The notes below the pieces were generated by a model, which worked only from the letters and a program-made list of their open reading frames with translations, did not search any database and was not told the origin of the DNA. A stretch of 6,581 nucleotides of DNA from Candidatus Eiseniibacteriota bacterium (GTDB lineage Bacteria; Arandabacterota; Arandabacteria; JAGLYR01): assembly GCA_023132135.1 (NCBI GenBank), contig JAGLYR010000171.1, forward strand, positions 1 to 6,581, written 5' to 3'. The position numbers and the translations under genes are program-made. This document shows, piece by piece, positions 1-6,541 of the stretch. Within the stretch, counting starts at the first letter, position 1, and every line of letters begins with the position of its first letter.

Positions 1-351
1 CAAGGGCAATTGCTTCAGGTAGTGGACGACGACAGCCGCGAAGTTCGGGTTCAGGCTCGTCAGTTTCGATTTGAGCACTCCCCGGGCACTCCTGATGACG
101 CTGGTCTTCGGGCCGATGAGATATGTCTCCGCAGGATCGATCACTGGATCCAGGATGGCCTCCTGCTCCAGCCTATGACGGTGAATCACTTCAAACGCTC
201 TGCTCGCGCGTGAAGCGGCATCCAGACTGAGATCATAGTTGGGCTGCTGGACCGGACCCTTCGTCCACTCCATGCCCCCCTGGCAGGCCACGGCCAACAG
301 GGCAAGCCCCACCAGGACCAACATCCGCCTTCTACCCGATAGAGGATTCAA
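1..351 (-). CDS. pgsW: PgsW-like poly-gamma-glutamate system lipoprotein, 3' end cut by window edge
   Basis: This is the N-terminal part (117 codons) of a protein resembling PgsW, a poorly characterised protein encoded next to pgsB and pgsC in some bacteria; its biochemical role is unknown. The start is uncertain. TTG at 351 overlaps pgsC by 20 bases and gives a signal peptide with an Arg7-Arg8-Arg9 n-region, a hydrophobic core (about 10-22) and Cys23 in a loose lipobox (AVAC). ATG at 324 lies 7 bases after the pgsC stop behind AGAAGG, but removes the positive charges. I prefer TTG because signal peptides normally need a basic n-region. An in-frame TGA closes the frame upstream. The mature part has LIGP (78-81) and a KLTSLNPNFAAVVV stretch (96-109), which I recall as typical of the family. 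It is last of the visible pgs genes and probably co-transcribed with pgsC. The identification rests on recalled motifs and context. Envelope location is inferred. Confidence 0.72.
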   Translation of the reverse strand, partial: MNPLSGRRRMLVLVGLALLAVACQGGMEWTKGPVQQPNYDLSLDAASRASRAFEVIHRHRLEQEAILDPVIDPAETYLIGPKTSVIRSARGVLKSKLTSLNPNFAAVVVHYLKQLPL

Positions 352-799
352 TGAGACGCCCCCCGTAGGCCGCGATCAGCGTCACTCGGACGATGAAGGC
401 GGCAATCAACATTGTACACGCCGTCTCCACGATTCCCTGGCGGATCATCCAATAGGCGATGAGACCCGGGATGATATAGCCGATGAATCGAAAGACTTCT
501 GGATCCGCGCCCGTCTGCGGGACGAGGACGTACCAAGTGAGATGCCCCACAAGGAATCCGACCAACGCGCAGAGGACGAGCGTCCGCCTACCAAACAGCA
601 ACACCCAGCGCCCGATAATGCTGACGATAGCCATCGTGACAAGCCCGGCCAGCAGAGTCCCCAGAACGCGTAGCGGCTCGTGGAGGTGCAGAGCAATGTA
701 CCCAGGAACAATGAGCCCCCCGGCGGCCACGCCGAGAATCTCTGAGAATGCCAGACTCACCACAAGCCCGAGCCCGATCGCGATCGTTTCAACAATCAT
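332..799 (-). CDS. pgsC: PgsC/CapC, membrane subunit of poly-gamma-glutamate synthase
   Basis: PgsC is the small integral membrane partner of PgsB in PGA synthesis at the cytoplasmic membrane. This product is 155 residues, close to about 149 in Bacillus. It matches the family along its length: an N-terminal helix ending near Glu20, GGLIVPGYIAL (27-37), FGRR (69-72), and GYIIPGLIA (107-115) followed by RQG (120-122). Bacillus PgsC carries AGLVVPGYLAL, YGRR and GVIVPGLIA with RQG at the matching places. Hydrophobic segments lie near 5-20, 23-38, 45-62, 73-93, 105-118 and 125-145. The start ATG overlaps the pgsB stop as ATGA, the usual sign of translational coupling, and AGGGGGCAAGG stands just upstream. 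The family call is secure. The exact helix count is my estimate. Confidence 0.93.
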   Translation of the reverse strand: MIVETIAIGLGLVVSLAFSEILGVAAGGLIVPGYIALHLHEPLRVLGTLLAGLVTMAIVSIIGRWVLLFGRRTLVLCALVGFLVGHLTWYVLVPQTGADPEVFRFIGYIIPGLIAYWMIRQGIVETACTMLIAAFIVRVTLIAAYGGRLIESSIG

Positions 800-1965
800 C
801 CTTGCCCCCTACGAGATTCGAGATACTCAAGAAATGCCTGCCCGGCCCCTCCGATGTTTCCCACACCCACTACACAAGAACCAGGTTTCGCCATCCGCAA
901 GAGAGCGCTATACACGTCTTCAGCCGACGTTCTCCCCAAGTCGACAAACGCTTCTGGGGACGCGCCGCGGCGCACCGCCCACTTGCGAAACATCTTCGTC
1001 TGGTCCCCAATCAAAATGTATCTCTCGGCTCTCAAGTTCTCGTGAATCACATCAGCGAGGTCCCTGCTCCGTCTCATCCGGTCGCCCCTCAAGTTTATGA
1101 GGACGAGGATCTTCTCCGGATCTTGTTTCGATAGGCCGAGCCTATTCCAAACCATGAGTGTGGACGTTGGGTCATTGGCGGCAAAAGCATTAACGAACTC
1201 GATCTCCTGGTCCCCCTCACGGAGGATAATCCGCCTAAGGGCACCCACGTCGGGAGTGACGCATCGCATACCCGACAGTGCCGTTTCCCGCGGAACACCC
1301 AGCACCTCACAAACATCCAGCGCAAGACACACGTTCTCGGCATGCTCGATGTAAGGAAAACCCTCAAGGTCCCCGTCACCAAGATTCCGGGGGTCGCTGA
1401 GATGGAAACTCGAGCCACGCCGGGAAGCAACGTCCTCGAACAACTCGGCGAAGTCCTGCTCCGCACAGAAGAGTTGCCCCCGTGTCGGGATCGTGTTCGA
1501 GAGAGCGAGGGCGACATTCCCGATGGTGGGCCCTATGATCTCAAGGTGATCCGGACGGACGTTGGTGATGACCCCGATCGTTGACTGGACGATCTTTCTC
1601 TCCGTGACAGTCTGGAGGTCGGAACGAATTGCCATGCACTCCATCACCATGGCCTTCGCTCCCTCGGCAGCCGCCTGGCGCATGACGGCGATCTGCTCCT
1701 TGATATTGGGCGGGCCCTGCCGGTAGACAGGATGCTCGCTGCCGTCGGGGTGGATGTACCTCGCAGCGGAACCTGTGGTCTTCGCGACAGTCTGGATGCC
1801 ACCGGCTCTCAGGCCTGCTGCGATTAGCCTAGTGACCGAAGACTTTCCGCGCGAACCATTGACGTGAATCCGAATGGGGATCTGCCTGAGTGAGCGTTGG
1901 TGCCGGAAGTGCTCAAGAAGCCCGAGGAGCACAAAGACCACGACCACCAATAGAACGAGCTTCAC
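796..1965 (-). CDS. pgsB: PgsB/CapB, ATP-dependent poly-gamma-glutamate synthase catalytic subunit
   Basis: PgsB is a Mur-ligase-like amide ligase that activates the gamma-carboxyl of glutamate with ATP and extends poly-gamma-glutamate. I choose GTG at 1965 (389 residues; Bacillus PgsB has 393). GGAGG sits 5 bases upstream, and the neighbouring pgsB remnant begins with the same MKL. The frame also has a GTG at 1971, but that codon overlaps the ribosome binding site. One N-terminal membrane helix (about 3-17) is followed by EHFRHQRSL (18-26), the ATP-binding loop NGSRGKSSVTR (36-46), KTTGS (60-64), GPPNIKEQ (84-91), ECMA (109-112), NVRPDH (135-140), FAANDPTST (261-269), RGDR (293-296) and GVGNIGG (367-373). 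All have clear counterparts in Bacillus PgsB, so the gene looks intact and functional. It leads the pgsB-pgsC-pgsW run and overlaps pgsC by 4 bases. The polymer could be retained or released; the window does not show which. Confidence 0.95.
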   Translation of the reverse strand: MKLVLLVVVVFVLLGLLEHFRHQRSLRQIPIRIHVNGSRGKSSVTRLIAAGLRAGGIQTVAKTTGSAARYIHPDGSEHPVYRQGPPNIKEQIAVMRQAAAEGAKAMVMECMAIRSDLQTVTERKIVQSTIGVITNVRPDHLEIIGPTIGNVALALSNTIPTRGQLFCAEQDFAELFEDVASRRGSSFHLSDPRNLGDGDLEGFPYIEHAENVCLALDVCEVLGVPRETALSGMRCVTPDVGALRRIILREGDQEIEFVNAFAANDPTSTLMVWNRLGLSKQDPEKILVLINLRGDRMRRSRDLADVIHENLRAERYILIGDQTKMFRKWAVRRGASPEAFVDLGRTSAEDVYSALLRMAKPGSCVVGVGNIGGAGQAFLEYLESRRGQG

Positions 1966-2064
1966 TGCCACCTCCGGGTTCTACAAACTACGCAGGGGAC
2001 AAGGCACACCGACCATCTTCCTCATTACGCCCGACAAACCAGAGCGTGTTACTCTATCAGAATG
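1966..2064. other. Spacer between pgsB remnant and intact pgsB
   Basis: These 99 bases hold the pgsB ribosome binding site and no convincing promoter or hairpin terminator. Intact pgsB is therefore probably transcribed from the promoter upstream of the remnant, or by read-through from the kinase gene. A receiver-phase reading frame left over from the junction in the remnant stays open to a TAA at 2049-2051. Confidence 0.4.
1971..1975 (-). promoter_or_regulatory. Ribosome binding site GGAGG that fixes the pgsB start
   Basis: GGAGG (minus strand) lies 5 bases before GTG at 1965. The first base of the in-frame GTG at 1971 is the last G of this motif, so that codon is an unlikely start. Confidence 0.7.
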
Positions 2065-2307
2065 TCACCAATGGTGCAAGCCAAATCCTGCCACGCTAAA
2101 CACGATGACTGTCCGGATCCGGCTGTCAGGACATCGAACCCCGCCGGCCCTCAGCCCGGCGGCAATGAGCCGCGTGACCGAGGACTTCCCCCGCGTTCCG
2201 TTGACGTGGATCCGGACAGGGATCTTTGCCAACGATCGCTGGTGGCGAAAATGCTCCACCAGCCCGGCGATCACGAAGAGAATGATGAGGAGAACAATGA
2301 GTTTCAT
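2065..2307 (-). pseudogene. Truncated second pgsB, N-terminal 56 codons fused out of frame to receiver-gene sequence
   Basis: The 80-codon frame begins like PgsB. Residues 1-56 align without gaps to the first 56 residues of intact PgsB, with 43 identities by my count, including the membrane helix, EHFRHQRSL and the NGTRGKSSVTR ATP loop. After Gly56 the similarity stops: the last 24 residues are unlike PgsB, and everything that forms the rest of the ligase is missing. From 2145 down to 2118 the DNA is identical to 2759-2732 in the receiver-domain part of the kinase gene, but read one base out of phase. This looks like the scar of an old rearrangement that left the 5' end of a paralogous or imported pgsB. 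Many synonymous differences from the intact copy argue against a recent tandem duplication. A stable 80-residue membrane peptide with a P-loop cannot be excluded. The start ATG overlaps the stop of a possible leader ORF (ATGA). Confidence 0.85.
2118..2145. repeat. 28-base direct repeat, copy 1 (inside pgsB remnant)
   Basis: This stretch is identical over 28 bases to 2732-2759. It starts tccggctgtc and ends accccgcc on the plus strand. It begins exactly where the remnant stops resembling pgsB. The shared run of about six G/C bases (GGCGGG, minus strand) at the boundary would suit microhomology-mediated joining. Confidence 0.9.
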
Positions 2308-2393: not shown

Positions 2394-2421
2394 ATTCTAG
2401 CAGAATTTGTGGTGTTTTCAA
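2394..2421 (-). promoter_or_regulatory. Sigma-70-like promoter for the pgs genes
   Basis: On the minus strand, TTGAAA (2421-2416) and TAGAAT (2399-2394) are separated by 16 bases; each hexamer matches consensus at five of six positions. Transcription would start near 2387, giving a leader of about 80 bases before the pgsB remnant. The stretch is AT-rich compared with its surroundings. It begins 28 bases after the kinase stop codon. Confidence 0.6.
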
Positions 2422-2449: not shown

Positions 2450-4960
2450 CTAGGAACCAGGGACTATCTCCAATGCCTTTTTCAATCTCTCCGTGAGCGT
2501 TGCGAACCCGAAGGGCTTCTGGATGAATCCCGCAAGACCCTTCCCCCGGAACCGCTCGGACAGTTCCCGCTCGCTGTAACCGCTGGCAAGGATCACCGGC
2601 ACGTTGCTTCGAATCTCCCGGAGTCTGTAAAAGGTCTGCTCCCCGGCCTGGTGGGGCATCGTCAAATCCAGGATCACTGCGACAATATCATCCGCACGAT
2701 CGCGGAAAATCCGGACGCCCTCCCGACCGTCTCCGGCTGTCAGGACATCGAACCCCGCCTTCTCCAGCATTCTCCGGGTCACAAACCGGACCGCCTCTTC
2801 GTCATCTACGACGAGAACGGTCCCCTGAGCTTTCAGGTCCGCGGACTCGGGGATCCTGGGTTCGGCAACTGCTGCCGGCTGCACGCCCGGCGGGAACAAT
2901 ACACGGAAGGTCGTCCCACAACCGGGTTCGCTCGACACCATGATTGCCCCGCGATGGCCGCGCACGATGCCCAGAACGGCGGCCAGTCCCAGCCCGCGCC
3001 CCGTGAACTTTGTCGTGAAAAACGGCTCAAAAATCCTCGAGAGCGTTTCCTCGCTCATTCCGCATCCGGTGTCGGACACCTCCATATAGATGTAGTCTCC
3101 CTCCGGCAGGTCCTCATCCAGATACGTCTTCGCCAGATCCTCGCGCGTGCAATGGGTCACACCTGTGTCCAGAACAATAGTACCGCCTCCATCACCAATA
3201 GATTCAGAAGCGTTGGTGATGAGGTTGAGGACAATCTGCCGGATCTGGGTGGCGTCGGCGTCGATGAGGGGAATATCCGCGGAAAGGTCACGCTTGAAAA
3301 CAGTATTCCTTGAGATAGACACCTCCAGAAGATGCGCCATCTCCTCGACCACCTCGCTGAGACTCACCGCCCGGACCACAAACCGTCCCTTGCCCGAGTA
3401 TGCCAGCATCTGTGCGCACAGTTCCGCTGCTCTCCGGGCCGCAGTCTCGATAGCCTCAATGTGGTCGAGCGCCCCCGACCCGGTACTGATCTCCGGCTTC
3501 GCCAGCTCAGCGTTGCCCAGGATTCCCATCAGGAGGTTGTTGAAATCGTGGGCAATCCCGCCGGCCAGCACGCCGAGGCTCTCCAGCTTCTGGGCGTGTT
3601 GAACCTGGGCCTCGAGCTGCCGCCGCTCTTCCTCGGCGCACCTGCGCTCCGTGATATCGCGAATAATGACCAGCCCGGCCGGCAGCGACTCGTACTGGAT
3701 GGCCGCAACCGAGGTCTCGCAGGGTATGACGGCTCTGTCTCTGGCAACCAGATCAACCTGGTACGTCTGCTGAACCTCTTTCCCCGCGAGTCGATCTTCG
3801 TACCACCGGCGGGCCGCCTCCCTGTCCTGCTCCCGGACGAGATCGAAGTAACTCAACCCCCTGTCCACATCATCCCGGGTGTAGCCGAAGACTTCCGAAA
3901 ACGCCGGGTTCGCGAACCGGCACCGACCGTCCAGGACAATCAATACGGGATCGGGGCTCAGCTCCACGAGATCCCTGTAACGCTCTTCGCTCTCCCCCAG
4001 AGCGTGTTCCATCTTTGCCCTGGCGATCGCGCTGCCGATGCCGGAAGCGATCGTTTCCAGCGAAGTGCGTGCGAGATCGCTGATGTCGTCTTTGGTGTGC
4101 GAGGCGATGTTCAGACAGGCAATCACCCTGTCTTCGAAACGAATGGGGATCACGGCAAGCGCACGCAGGCCCTCACCCACTTTACCATTGTCGGGGGAGC
4201 CCCCTAGTTCCTGATACAGAGTGTAGACCGATTTCCCCGCCATGATCACGCGCGCGTTGACGGAGTCCGCGTCATAGTGCGACGCTCCGCGTATGAAGCC
4301 AGGAGACAATCCCTGGTGGAACGCGAGGTCGACCGCGCCGGAGACATGATCAATGAGATACACCCCGCCACTGTCCATTCTCGAGACCCGGATCGATGTT
4401 TCGACACACAACCGGAGTGTTTCCTCGAGTCCATGAGCAGCGCTCAGCGCCACCCCAAGATCCCGTTGCTCGCGAATCAGATCCTCCGCCCGCTTGCGAT
4501 CGGTGATGTCCCTGATGTGTTCCACAACCCCCACAACCTTGCCGTCGGCATCCTTCAGCGGATACGAGGACAAATCGACCCATCCCGCCGGCTCCTCGAA
4601 GGACGGATATGGCATGACCTCACTGTGCATCTCGCCCGTCTCGAGTGCTGCAAGACTCGGACACCGCGGGCATGGAGACTGCCGCTTCTGGTAAACCTCG
4701 TAGCATTTCCGGCCCACCAGCGGCATTTCGGCCGTGTATGTTTTCTCTATCCATGTGTTCGCTCTGACGACATTGAGATCGGAATCAAGGATGCTGATCC
4801 CGTCCTGGATTCCGTCGAACACCGCCTGCATAAGCCATTTACTCTCCGCCTGCGCCTCCAACAGGTCATGAGGCGGTTTCTTGACGGACTCGCTGGGCTT
4901 GCGCTCTTCCTCTGCGGGAACTTCTCGACTCGGCATAGCTCCCCCGGTGCGGGTGCTCAT
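2450..4960 (-). CDS. Hybrid sensor histidine kinase (PAS-GAF-PAS-HisKA-HATPase-REC)
   Basis: This 836-residue protein should autophosphorylate on histidine and pass the phosphate to its own receiver. ATG at 4960 is chosen because AGAGAGG ends 6 bases upstream; a TTG two codons earlier is less likely. Order: a polar N-terminus (1-38), PAS (about 40-157) with Cys86 and a CPRCP cluster (Cys97, Cys100), GAF (about 160-318), PAS (about 325-440) and a coiled linker. The dimerisation domain has IAHDFNN with His471. The ATPase has the N box NLITNASE (579-586), DTGCG (630-634), FEPFF (644-648) and GRGLG (654-658). The receiver (about 713-832) has Asp719/Asp720, phospho-acceptor Asp765, Ser793 and Lys815. 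All catalytic residues are present. No membrane helix or signal peptide is seen, so it is probably cytosolic. There is no DNA-binding output domain and no response regulator in the window, so a phosphorelay partner must lie elsewhere. It precedes the pgs genes on the same strand; a regulatory link is only positional. The signal is unknown. Confidence 0.94.
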   Translation of the reverse strand: MSTRTGGAMPSREVPAEEERKPSESVKKPPHDLLEAQAESKWLMQAVFDGIQDGISILDSDLNVVRANTWIEKTYTAEMPLVGRKCYEVYQKRQSPCPRCPSLAALETGEMHSEVMPYPSFEEPAGWVDLSSYPLKDADGKVVGVVEHIRDITDRKRAEDLIREQRDLGVALSAAHGLEETLRLCVETSIRVSRMDSGGVYLIDHVSGAVDLAFHQGLSPGFIRGASHYDADSVNARVIMAGKSVYTLYQELGGSPDNGKVGEGLRALAVIPIRFEDRVIACLNIASHTKDDISDLARTSLETIASGIGSAIARAKMEHALGESEERYRDLVELSPDPVLIVLDGRCRFANPAFSEVFGYTRDDVDRGLSYFDLVREQDREAARRWYEDRLAGKEVQQTYQVDLVARDRAVIPCETSVAAIQYESLPAGLVIIRDITERRCAEEERRQLEAQVQHAQKLESLGVLAGGIAHDFNNLLMGILGNAELAKPEISTGSGALDHIEAIETAARRAAELCAQMLAYSGKGRFVVRAVSLSEVVEEMAHLLEVSISRNTVFKRDLSADIPLIDADATQIRQIVLNLITNASESIGDGGGTIVLDTGVTHCTREDLAKTYLDEDLPEGDYIYMEVSDTGCGMSEETLSRIFEPFFTTKFTGRGLGLAAVLGIVRGHRGAIMVSSEPGCGTTFRVLFPPGVQPAAVAEPRIPESADLKAQGTVLVVDDEEAVRFVTRRMLEKAGFDVLTAGDGREGVRIFRDRADDIVAVILDLTMPHQAGEQTFYRLREIRSNVPVILASGYSERELSERFRGKGLAGFIQKPFGFATLTERLKKALEIVPGS
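2732..2759. repeat. 28-base direct repeat, copy 2 (inside kinase receiver domain)
   Basis: This is identical to 2118-2145. Here it is in frame and codes for the AGFDVLTAG segment of the receiver (residues 735-743), a common sequence in that fold. The kinase copy is therefore the natural context and the copy in the pgsB remnant is the displaced one. Confidence 0.9.
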
Positions 4961-4966
4961 GGACAA

Positions 4967-5065: not shown

Positions 5066-5080
5066 CCTAGCCTGGATTAT
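5066..5080 (+). repeat. Partial copy of dispersed repeat CCTAGCCTGGATTAT
   Basis: Fifteen bases identical to the left part of the repeats at 5292 and 6522. The sequence then diverges to gcacaac, so the right half of the palindrome is missing. Confidence 0.75.
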
Positions 5081-5176
5081 GCACAACTTTTGCGGTCTGG
5101 TGCTGCAACTATGTGGTCTGCATGTGGTTGGTACACGAGAGCCGAGTCAATCTCATTGTTAAATGATGCCAACATC

Positions 5177-5278
5177 CGTAAATTGTAAATGGTAAATGGC
5201 GCTCGGAGAACTGCATTGGAATAGCCCCCTACTTCCTTGTCTCCATCGTTTCCCCCCATTTACGATTTACCATTTACG
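5177..5278. repeat. Inverted repeat with arms made of three GTAAATN heptamers
   Basis: The left arm (5177-5199) reads cgtaaattgtaaatggtaaa followed by tgg. The right arm (5256-5278) is its reverse complement with 21 of 23 positions matching. Each arm is three tandem heptamers of the form GTAAATN. The arms enclose 56 bases. In RNA they could form a long stem. It may be a miniature non-autonomous element or a dispersed heptamer-repeat family; no transposase or clear target-site duplication is seen. Confidence 0.8.
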
Positions 5279-5291
5279 TCCGTTCCCCAAT

Positions 5292-5315
5292 CCTAGCCTG
5301 GATTATTCAGGCTAG
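5292..5315 (+). repeat. Full palindromic copy of dispersed repeat CCTAGCCTGGATTATTCAGG
   Basis: CTAGCCTG (5293-5300) and CAGGCTAG (5308-5315) form a perfect 8-base stem around the loop gattatt. The first 20 bases (5292-5311) recur at 6522-6541. No T-run follows, so it does not look like a normal intrinsic terminator. It lies directly before the candidate promoter of the next gene. Confidence 0.8.
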
Positions 5316-5420: not shown

Positions 5421-6521
5421 GTGACGGAAAAGACGAGATTTCTCTTCATTGATTACCTCCGGGGCATTGTGATCGCCCTCATGGCTCTGGATCACGCCTC
5501 GTACTACTTCAATTCCATCTGGTTCTGGTTCAATCCCATCGATCCGCTTTTTGACACAGTCCCGCAATTCCTGACCCGTTACTCTTCCTATCTGTGCGCA
5601 CCCGGGTTCCTGATACTGGCCGGGGCGATGGTGTTCCACTCGTACGACAGGCGAGTGGCCGGAGGTGCGTCTGCCTGGAAAACGAGGTGGAGCACGATTC
5701 AGCGCGGACTGTTCCTGGTCCTGTTGCAGCTCACATGGGTCAACTCGTGCTGGGGTGGCTTCACGCGGCTGAGGCTGGCACACATCGGCATCATTGCCTG
5801 CATCGGAATCTCGATCGCCCTGCTGGTGCTGATTGTCCACTGGCGCTGGCCGTTCCGTCTTCTTTTCGCCCTGGCGCTTTTCGCAATCCATCCGTGGTTG
5901 GTCGCGATCCCCTACGACCCCCACATCTGGTGGCAGCAACTCCCCATGGAGACCTTCGTCACGGCCGGCAAGTTCAACAAGTACCCTGTCATTCCGTGGT
6001 TTGCCCTGTGCACCCTGGGATCTGTGATTGCAGTCGGCTGGTTGAGGGCATGGACCGATCGCGGCAAGAGCATCCTGTACACGTTCCTTCTGGCCCTTGC
6101 GTGTTTCGCCGGCGGAGCGTTGGTCCGCCTCGGTCACAGCTACGGCAACCTGTTTGCGCACTCGGGATTCCCGTCCGTGTCCTATTTCCTTTTCCAGAAG
6201 TACCCGCCGAGCCTCGTCCACCAGTTCTGGGCGGCAGGCTCCATCCTCTTCTTCGGCGGCGTTTTCCAGATCATCGGAGACCGTGGTCAGCGGCTTCTCC
6301 ATCCGCTCCGCAGCTGGGGATCGGCGGCCCTGTTCTTCTACCTCCTCCACATCCCTATTCTCGCCTTGCTCGTCAAGCGCGGACCACTGCCCTACCGCAC
6401 GTCGGGCCTCGACGCCACCTACCTTGGCTGGATCGCTCTCCTGATCCTCATGTACCCGCTGTGCTGGTGGTATGGAAAGGTGAGAATGAGGACGAAGAAT
6501 CCGATTCTGCGAATGCTCTAG
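5421..6521 (+). CDS. DUF1624 / HGSNAT-like polytopic membrane protein, putative acyltransferase
   Basis: This 366-residue membrane protein belongs by its motifs to the DUF1624 / heparan-alpha-glucosaminide N-acetyltransferase-like family. The eukaryotic relatives move acetyl groups from cytosolic acetyl-CoA across a membrane onto sugar amines; most bacterial members have no known substrate. The signature is at the N-terminus: Arg6, Asp11, Arg14-Gly15, Met21 and Asp24-His25, the last being the likely catalytic region. Later marks are PVIPWF (189-194) and KYPPSL (260-265), which I recall as family hallmarks. About ten hydrophobic segments lie near 16-30, 57-73, 96-110, 119-140, 145-163, 190-208, 218-236, 268-286, 300-318 and 334-351. 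The start is GTG at 5421 behind a weak GGAAAGAA; the next in-frame ATG would cut off the signature, so GTG is preferred. It is divergent from the kinase, stands alone, and is flanked by 20-base direct repeats. Sugar O- or N-acylation of an envelope glycan is a guess. Confidence 0.87.
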   Translation: MTEKTRFLFIDYLRGIVIALMALDHASYYFNSIWFWFNPIDPLFDTVPQFLTRYSSYLCAPGFLILAGAMVFHSYDRRVAGGASAWKTRWSTIQRGLFLVLLQLTWVNSCWGGFTRLRLAHIGIIACIGISIALLVLIVHWRWPFRLLFALALFAIHPWLVAIPYDPHIWWQQLPMETFVTAGKFNKYPVIPWFALCTLGSVIAVGWLRAWTDRGKSILYTFLLALACFAGGALVRLGHSYGNLFAHSGFPSVSYFLFQKYPPSLVHQFWAAGSILFFGGVFQIIGDRGQRLLHPLRSWGSAALFFYLLHIPILALLVKRGPLPYRTSGLDATYLGWIALLILMYPLCWWYGKVRMRTKNPILRML

Positions 6522-6541
6522 CCTAGCCTGGATTATTCAGG
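6522..6541 (+). repeat. Third copy of dispersed repeat, directly after the acyltransferase-like gene
   Basis: Twenty bases identical to 5292-5311, beginning immediately after the TAG stop at 6519-6521. The right half of the palindrome is degraded here (CAGG then aatc), leaving only a 4-base CCTG/CAGG stem. Together with the copy at 5292 it brackets the gene with direct repeats. Confidence 0.85.

Follow-up and report, generated by a model that had tools for sequence, protein, structure and literature searches.

Short-patch double illegitimate recombination sets a small patch of DNA from elsewhere between microhomologies in the bacterial chromosome. The process is named for bacteria in PMC7192050, and PMC8421209 describes how polymerases switch templates at microhomology, with templated insertions; templated insertions at repair junctions are described mainly from eukaryotes in PMC8421209 and PMC12426944. 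Here the analysis was carried out on a window of 6581 bp, the whole stretch of DNA analysed and the complete contig C81 of a 3.4-Mb MAG in 345 contigs, on which a second, diverged pgsB, represented by its first sixth, lies upstream of an intact pgsB (Table 1). We propose, with a probability of about 0.72, that the remainder of this second pgsB was lost by a non-homologous rearrangement that left a patch templated by the neighboring sensor kinase gene.

Table 1. Features of the window (positions on the forward strand; all features lie on the minus strand).
Feature	Position	Strand	Description and evidence
Poly-gamma-glutamate system protein, N-terminal part	1..351	-	Truncated by contig end; TIGR04332 E 1.1e-17
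pgsC	332..799	-	Next after intact pgsB; TIGR04011 112 bits vs cut-off 96.45
Intact pgsB	796..1971	-	ORF of 391 aa; GTG at 1965 after GGAGG as likely start, predicted from sequence
Non-pgsB tail	1972..2106	-	Extends up to intact pgsB; first part gives the final residues of the 80-aa frame
80-aa frame	2307-2065	-	ATG start; adjoins intact pgs operon upstream
Possible resumed pgsB	2107..2118	-	12 nt (ATCCGGACAGTC, I-R-T-V); pgsB similarity ends afterwards
Stretch identical to kinase receiver DNA	2118..2145	-	28 nt (GGCGGGGTTCGATGTCCTGACAGCCGGA); exact match to 2732-2759 (-)
Putative net in-frame insertion	2119..2139	-	21 nt (VRCPDSR), kinase-copied; pgsB-like reading restored across it
Remnant of second pgsB	2140..2307	-	Codons 1-56 (membrane anchor and P-loop segment VNGTRGKSSVTR); TIGR04012 match and alignment to intact copy
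Promoter-like site	2394..2421	-	TTGAAA-16-TAGAAT, extended -10, upstream of remnant; consensus match only
Hybrid sensor kinase	2450..4966	-	PAS-GAF-PAS-HisKA-HATPase-receiver; Pfam PF02518, PF00512, PF00072 (residues 717-828)

The intact pgsB matched the TIGR04012 profile over its full length (profile positions 2-380; E 6e-128) with 426.8 bits, exceeding the curated cut-off of 222.7 bits, and pgsC occurred as a single copy genome-wide. The C-terminal part of the truncated poly-gamma-glutamate system protein was located at the end of contig C80 (about C80:9245-9757), and because this gene is divided between their ends C80 and C81 are probably neighboring contigs. The 80-aa frame matched TIGR04012 at residues 3-58 only (profile positions 2-57 of 380; E 4.8e-21) with 74.9 bits, which is below the cut-off and identifies it as a PgsB fragment rather than a PgsB; no Pfam family was matched in this frame. 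The alignment of codons 1-56 with the intact pgsB (1965-799) was gap-free and contained 42 identities (43 when the start codons are counted as Met), reproducing the hand count of the first-pass annotation. All 18 columns conserved at ≥95% in 70 homologs were kept in the remnant, including those of the N-terminal anchor and the VNGxRGKSSVTR P-loop segment, and its profile score ranked 24th of 72, with the intact copy 23rd. The lack of decay at these 18 positions indicates that either the break is recent relative to the divergence of the two copies or the frame is still constrained.

In a comparison of codons 2-57 (one past the gap-free block), 14 codons were identical between the remnant and the intact pgsB, 28 differed synonymously and 14 non-synonymously, with differences at the three codon positions distributed 16/2/33 and NG86 estimates of dN 0.16 and dS 2.4 (saturated). 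The two copies are therefore too diverged for a recent duplication, as had been suggested earlier from their synonymous differences. They are old paralogs or close xenologs, each under strong purifying selection for most of its separate history. One of the two may have come from elsewhere, as the first-pass annotation proposed. Over residues 15-56 they are each other's closest relatives, with 88% identity, the best other homolog among 70 reaching 81%, but in a tree of the 56-residue N-termini they paired in 30% of bootstrap trees, 56 residues being too few to resolve it. Loss of a once complete second pgsB is the probable history of the remnant. Searches elsewhere in the genome found neither a pgsB C-terminus nor a second pgsC or a second operon, and a second pgs operon elsewhere was rejected in view of the one pgsC, the one PgsX split over two probably adjacent contigs and the lack of any further pgsB; a plasmid source of the remnant was also considered and gave no match. 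No second pgsB piece was seen in 86 homologous loci, and a literature search returned no paper on a split pgsB of this kind. The distribution of the pgs locus is patchy, as it is present here and absent from the 7 other genomes of the phylum that were examined, perhaps reflecting horizontal acquisition; no relative carrying an intact ancestral form of the second pgsB was found. Synteny with kinase orthologs in the class was also tried and set aside, the best matches being partial, 32-39% identical and not clear orthologs.

The exact 28-nt identity to the kinase that had been noticed at the end of the remnant was recovered: it starts at codon 55, is read one base out of phase relative to the kinase, and breaks off abruptly at either end. 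In a whole-genome search the kinase was the sole other place of this 28-mer, with the donor segment 614 bp from the patch, and an exact 28-mer would be expected about 1e-10 times by chance (arithmetic for about 360 starting positions and both strands of the window). A control for repeats in the same genome gave 38 intra-contig exact pairs of ≥20 nt in 402 kb (40 contigs), those inspected being mostly tandem arrays, palindromic elements or pieces of longer duplications; an isolated 28-nt pair is thus unusual in this genome but not without parallel. In the kinase frame the 28 nt encode AGFDVLTAG, a normal receiver segment within PF00072. Because the sequence reads canonically as receiver there and out of phase in the remnant, the kinase appears to have been the donor. 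The patch codons GTT CGA TGT are AT-ending, which, against a GC3 of 0.80 for the remnant, suits imported DNA. The short G/C run on which the boundary had been placed corresponds to a microhomology, GGCGGG (at least 6 nt), at the left edge of the patch; the right edge carries GGA (3 nt), both edges being measured against the inferred ancestral sequence.

At the break the remnant reads GG-VRCPDSR-IRTV-IVFS, and at the same point 85 aligned PgsB homologs read GG-I-R-T-[VFI]-A-K-T-T-G. Skipping the 21 nt at 2139-2119 gives AGLRAGG-IRTV, in which 10 of 12 bases agree with the intact copy; no other of the 90 gap lengths tried did better. Over 90 offsets, IRTV would turn up by chance at exactly this in-frame position with a probability of about 0.003 (arithmetic), and 4 of 11945 4-mers in the translations of the window scored equally against homolog columns 57-60. 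Past the 21 nt, 12 of 24 bases matched the intact pgsB, 10 of them within the first 12, and pgsB similarity is over by 2107. We infer that the sequence returned to pgsB after the patch (IRTV); the 28 nt probably amount to an in-frame insertion of 21 nt net, and the break by which the remaining pgsB was lost lies just beyond it. VRC within the patch is also compatible with PgsB, [VI]RC being present in 5 of 85 homologs, all from one Myxococcota clade, and some of the 28 nt may belong to the original pgsB and have served as a longer microhomology. A 12-nt inverted match, GGATCCGGACAG, links 2109-2120 with 2208-2219 (-) in the remnant, possibly by chance and possibly as a fold-back copy. Because VRC is PgsB-compatible and these 12 nt match the remnant in inverted orientation, the edges of the patch and the number of switches are less certain.

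Beyond the patch, the tail had no Pfam match in the two reading frames tested, and no other match to its part 2040-2106 was found in the same genome. A related receiver had been offered besides the kinase as the source of this DNA, a suggestion that found no support: the receiver-frame translation of the tail had no Pfam match at E up to 10, and a receiver paralog was rejected as its source with no PF00072 match beyond the 28 nt at the same threshold and no other genome match. The joining of pgsB and receiver sequence proposed in the first-pass annotation stands as an illegitimate (non-homologous) join between kinase-derived DNA and a diverged copy of pgsB, but not as a two-part fusion, since only the 28 nt are kinase-derived and the region consists of three or four pieces.

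Under the proposed mechanism, a rearrangement between the kinase and the intact pgs operon would have cost the second pgsB five sixths of its length. A DNA end or replication fork would have primed on GGCGGG and copied 28 nt of the kinase receiver segment, and copying would have returned to pgsB, probably on GGA, for about 12 nt before a join to the DNA upstream of the intact pgsB, producing a pseudogene with a net 21-nt in-frame templated insertion. Polymerase template switching or microhomology-based joining would fit a short copy of this kind, whose source lies about 600 bp off and whose edges show apparent microhomology. No Ku was found in this genome, which suits the same two processes over classical NHEJ, and Ku-based NHEJ was rejected on this ground. 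To judge from the sequence, the process may have been template switching, microhomology-based joining or short-patch double illegitimate recombination.

An account with one switch fewer would be a simple two-part junction, in which native pgsB runs to GG-V-R(-C) and recombines with the kinase receiver DNA over an 11-15-nt microhomology, a second junction follows after GCCGGA, and the IRTV match is due to chance. The presence of V-R or V-R-C in some homologs agrees with such a junction, which we nonetheless regard as unlikely given the low chance probability of IRTV at its exact in-frame place (about 0.003), the codons GTT CGA TGT, which are out of style for a remnant with a GC3 of 0.80, and the limitation of VRC to one homolog clade. 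It is distinctly improbable that the junction is an assembly, library or amplification chimera absent from the organism. The junction is known from one short 6.6-kb contig of a 345-contig MAG, and 28 nt is near a short assembly k-mer length; however, had two paths been misjoined in the assembly graph at a shared 28-mer, each side would carry the sequence of one parent. Here an intact kinase copy is present elsewhere in the contig and the patch is not followed by kinase sequence, so that a simple crossover between two paths does not account for it. The pgsB remnant is, moreover, a distinct diverged copy.

The promoter-like site upstream of the remnant matched 10 of 12 consensus bases, with shuffled sequences averaging 0.3 sites, and as a consensus match it agrees with the earlier view that the broken pgsB kept its promoter. 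No terminator-like site was found between this site (2421-2394) and the intact pgsB, and transcription of the operon may pass through the remnant. The promoter-like site, the open frame, the 18 conserved columns without decay and the profile score rank of 24 among 72 would all fit an 80-aa frame retained as a functional gene, either as a membrane-anchored PgsB N-terminal piece or as a leader ORF modulating the downstream operon. Such retention is nevertheless very improbable: most of the ligase is missing, the final 24 codons match no family, the ATG has no clear Shine-Dalgarno sequence nearby, nothing comparable lies beside pgsB in the 86 homologous loci, and a recent break explains the lack of decay equally well. 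More remote still is the idea that an 80-residue membrane-anchored P-loop peptide, having captured kinase DNA and being transcribed before the pgs operon, modulates PgsB assembly or operon expression.

Repeats were also observed elsewhere in the contig. CCTAGCCTGGATTATTCAGG occurs at 5292-5311 and 6522-6541, with a variant at 5066-5085, as part of a palindrome that in the 5292 copy reads CTAGCCTG-GATTATT-CAGGCTAG. The genome contains 8 exact copies of the 18-mer CCTAGCCTGGATTATTCA and 0 of the reversed control, and related GCCTGGACTATGCACRAATCC palindromes were seen on other contigs; the CCTAGCCTGGATTATTCAGG and GCCTGGACTATGCACRAATCC palindromes may form a REP-like family. At 5177-5280, in the intergenic region before the gene at 5421-6521, an AT-rich motif is present in facing copies (GTAAATGGTAAATGG / CCATTTACGATTTACCATTTAC), a possible MITE-like hairpin.

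The locus is a case of ordinary genome decay whose scar can still be read, and not a new system. With its unique nearby donor and readable edges, the scar is a neat natural instance of short templated insertion, from a bacterium without detected Ku, and the remnant suggests that the lineage formerly had two diverged pgsB genes; neither the scar nor the second pgsB alone changes the understanding of poly-glutamate synthesis or DNA repair. Compared with PgsB/CapB proteins (TIGR04012), the remnant shares the first 56 residues, P-loop segment included, but is without the other ~320 residues and therefore cannot be a working ligase. As in templated repair-junction insertions (microhomology-mediated break-induced replication, template switching, alternative end joining), a segment here appears to have been copied from nearby, its edges show apparent microhomology, and a gene was probably deleted at the junction; those insertions are mainly eukaryotic in PMC8421209 and PMC12426944, whereas the present case comes from a bacterial MAG and is reconstructed from one sequence. 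As in short-patch double illegitimate recombination, a small DNA patch from elsewhere appears to lie between microhomologies; here, unlike in that process, the rest of the gene was probably also lost.
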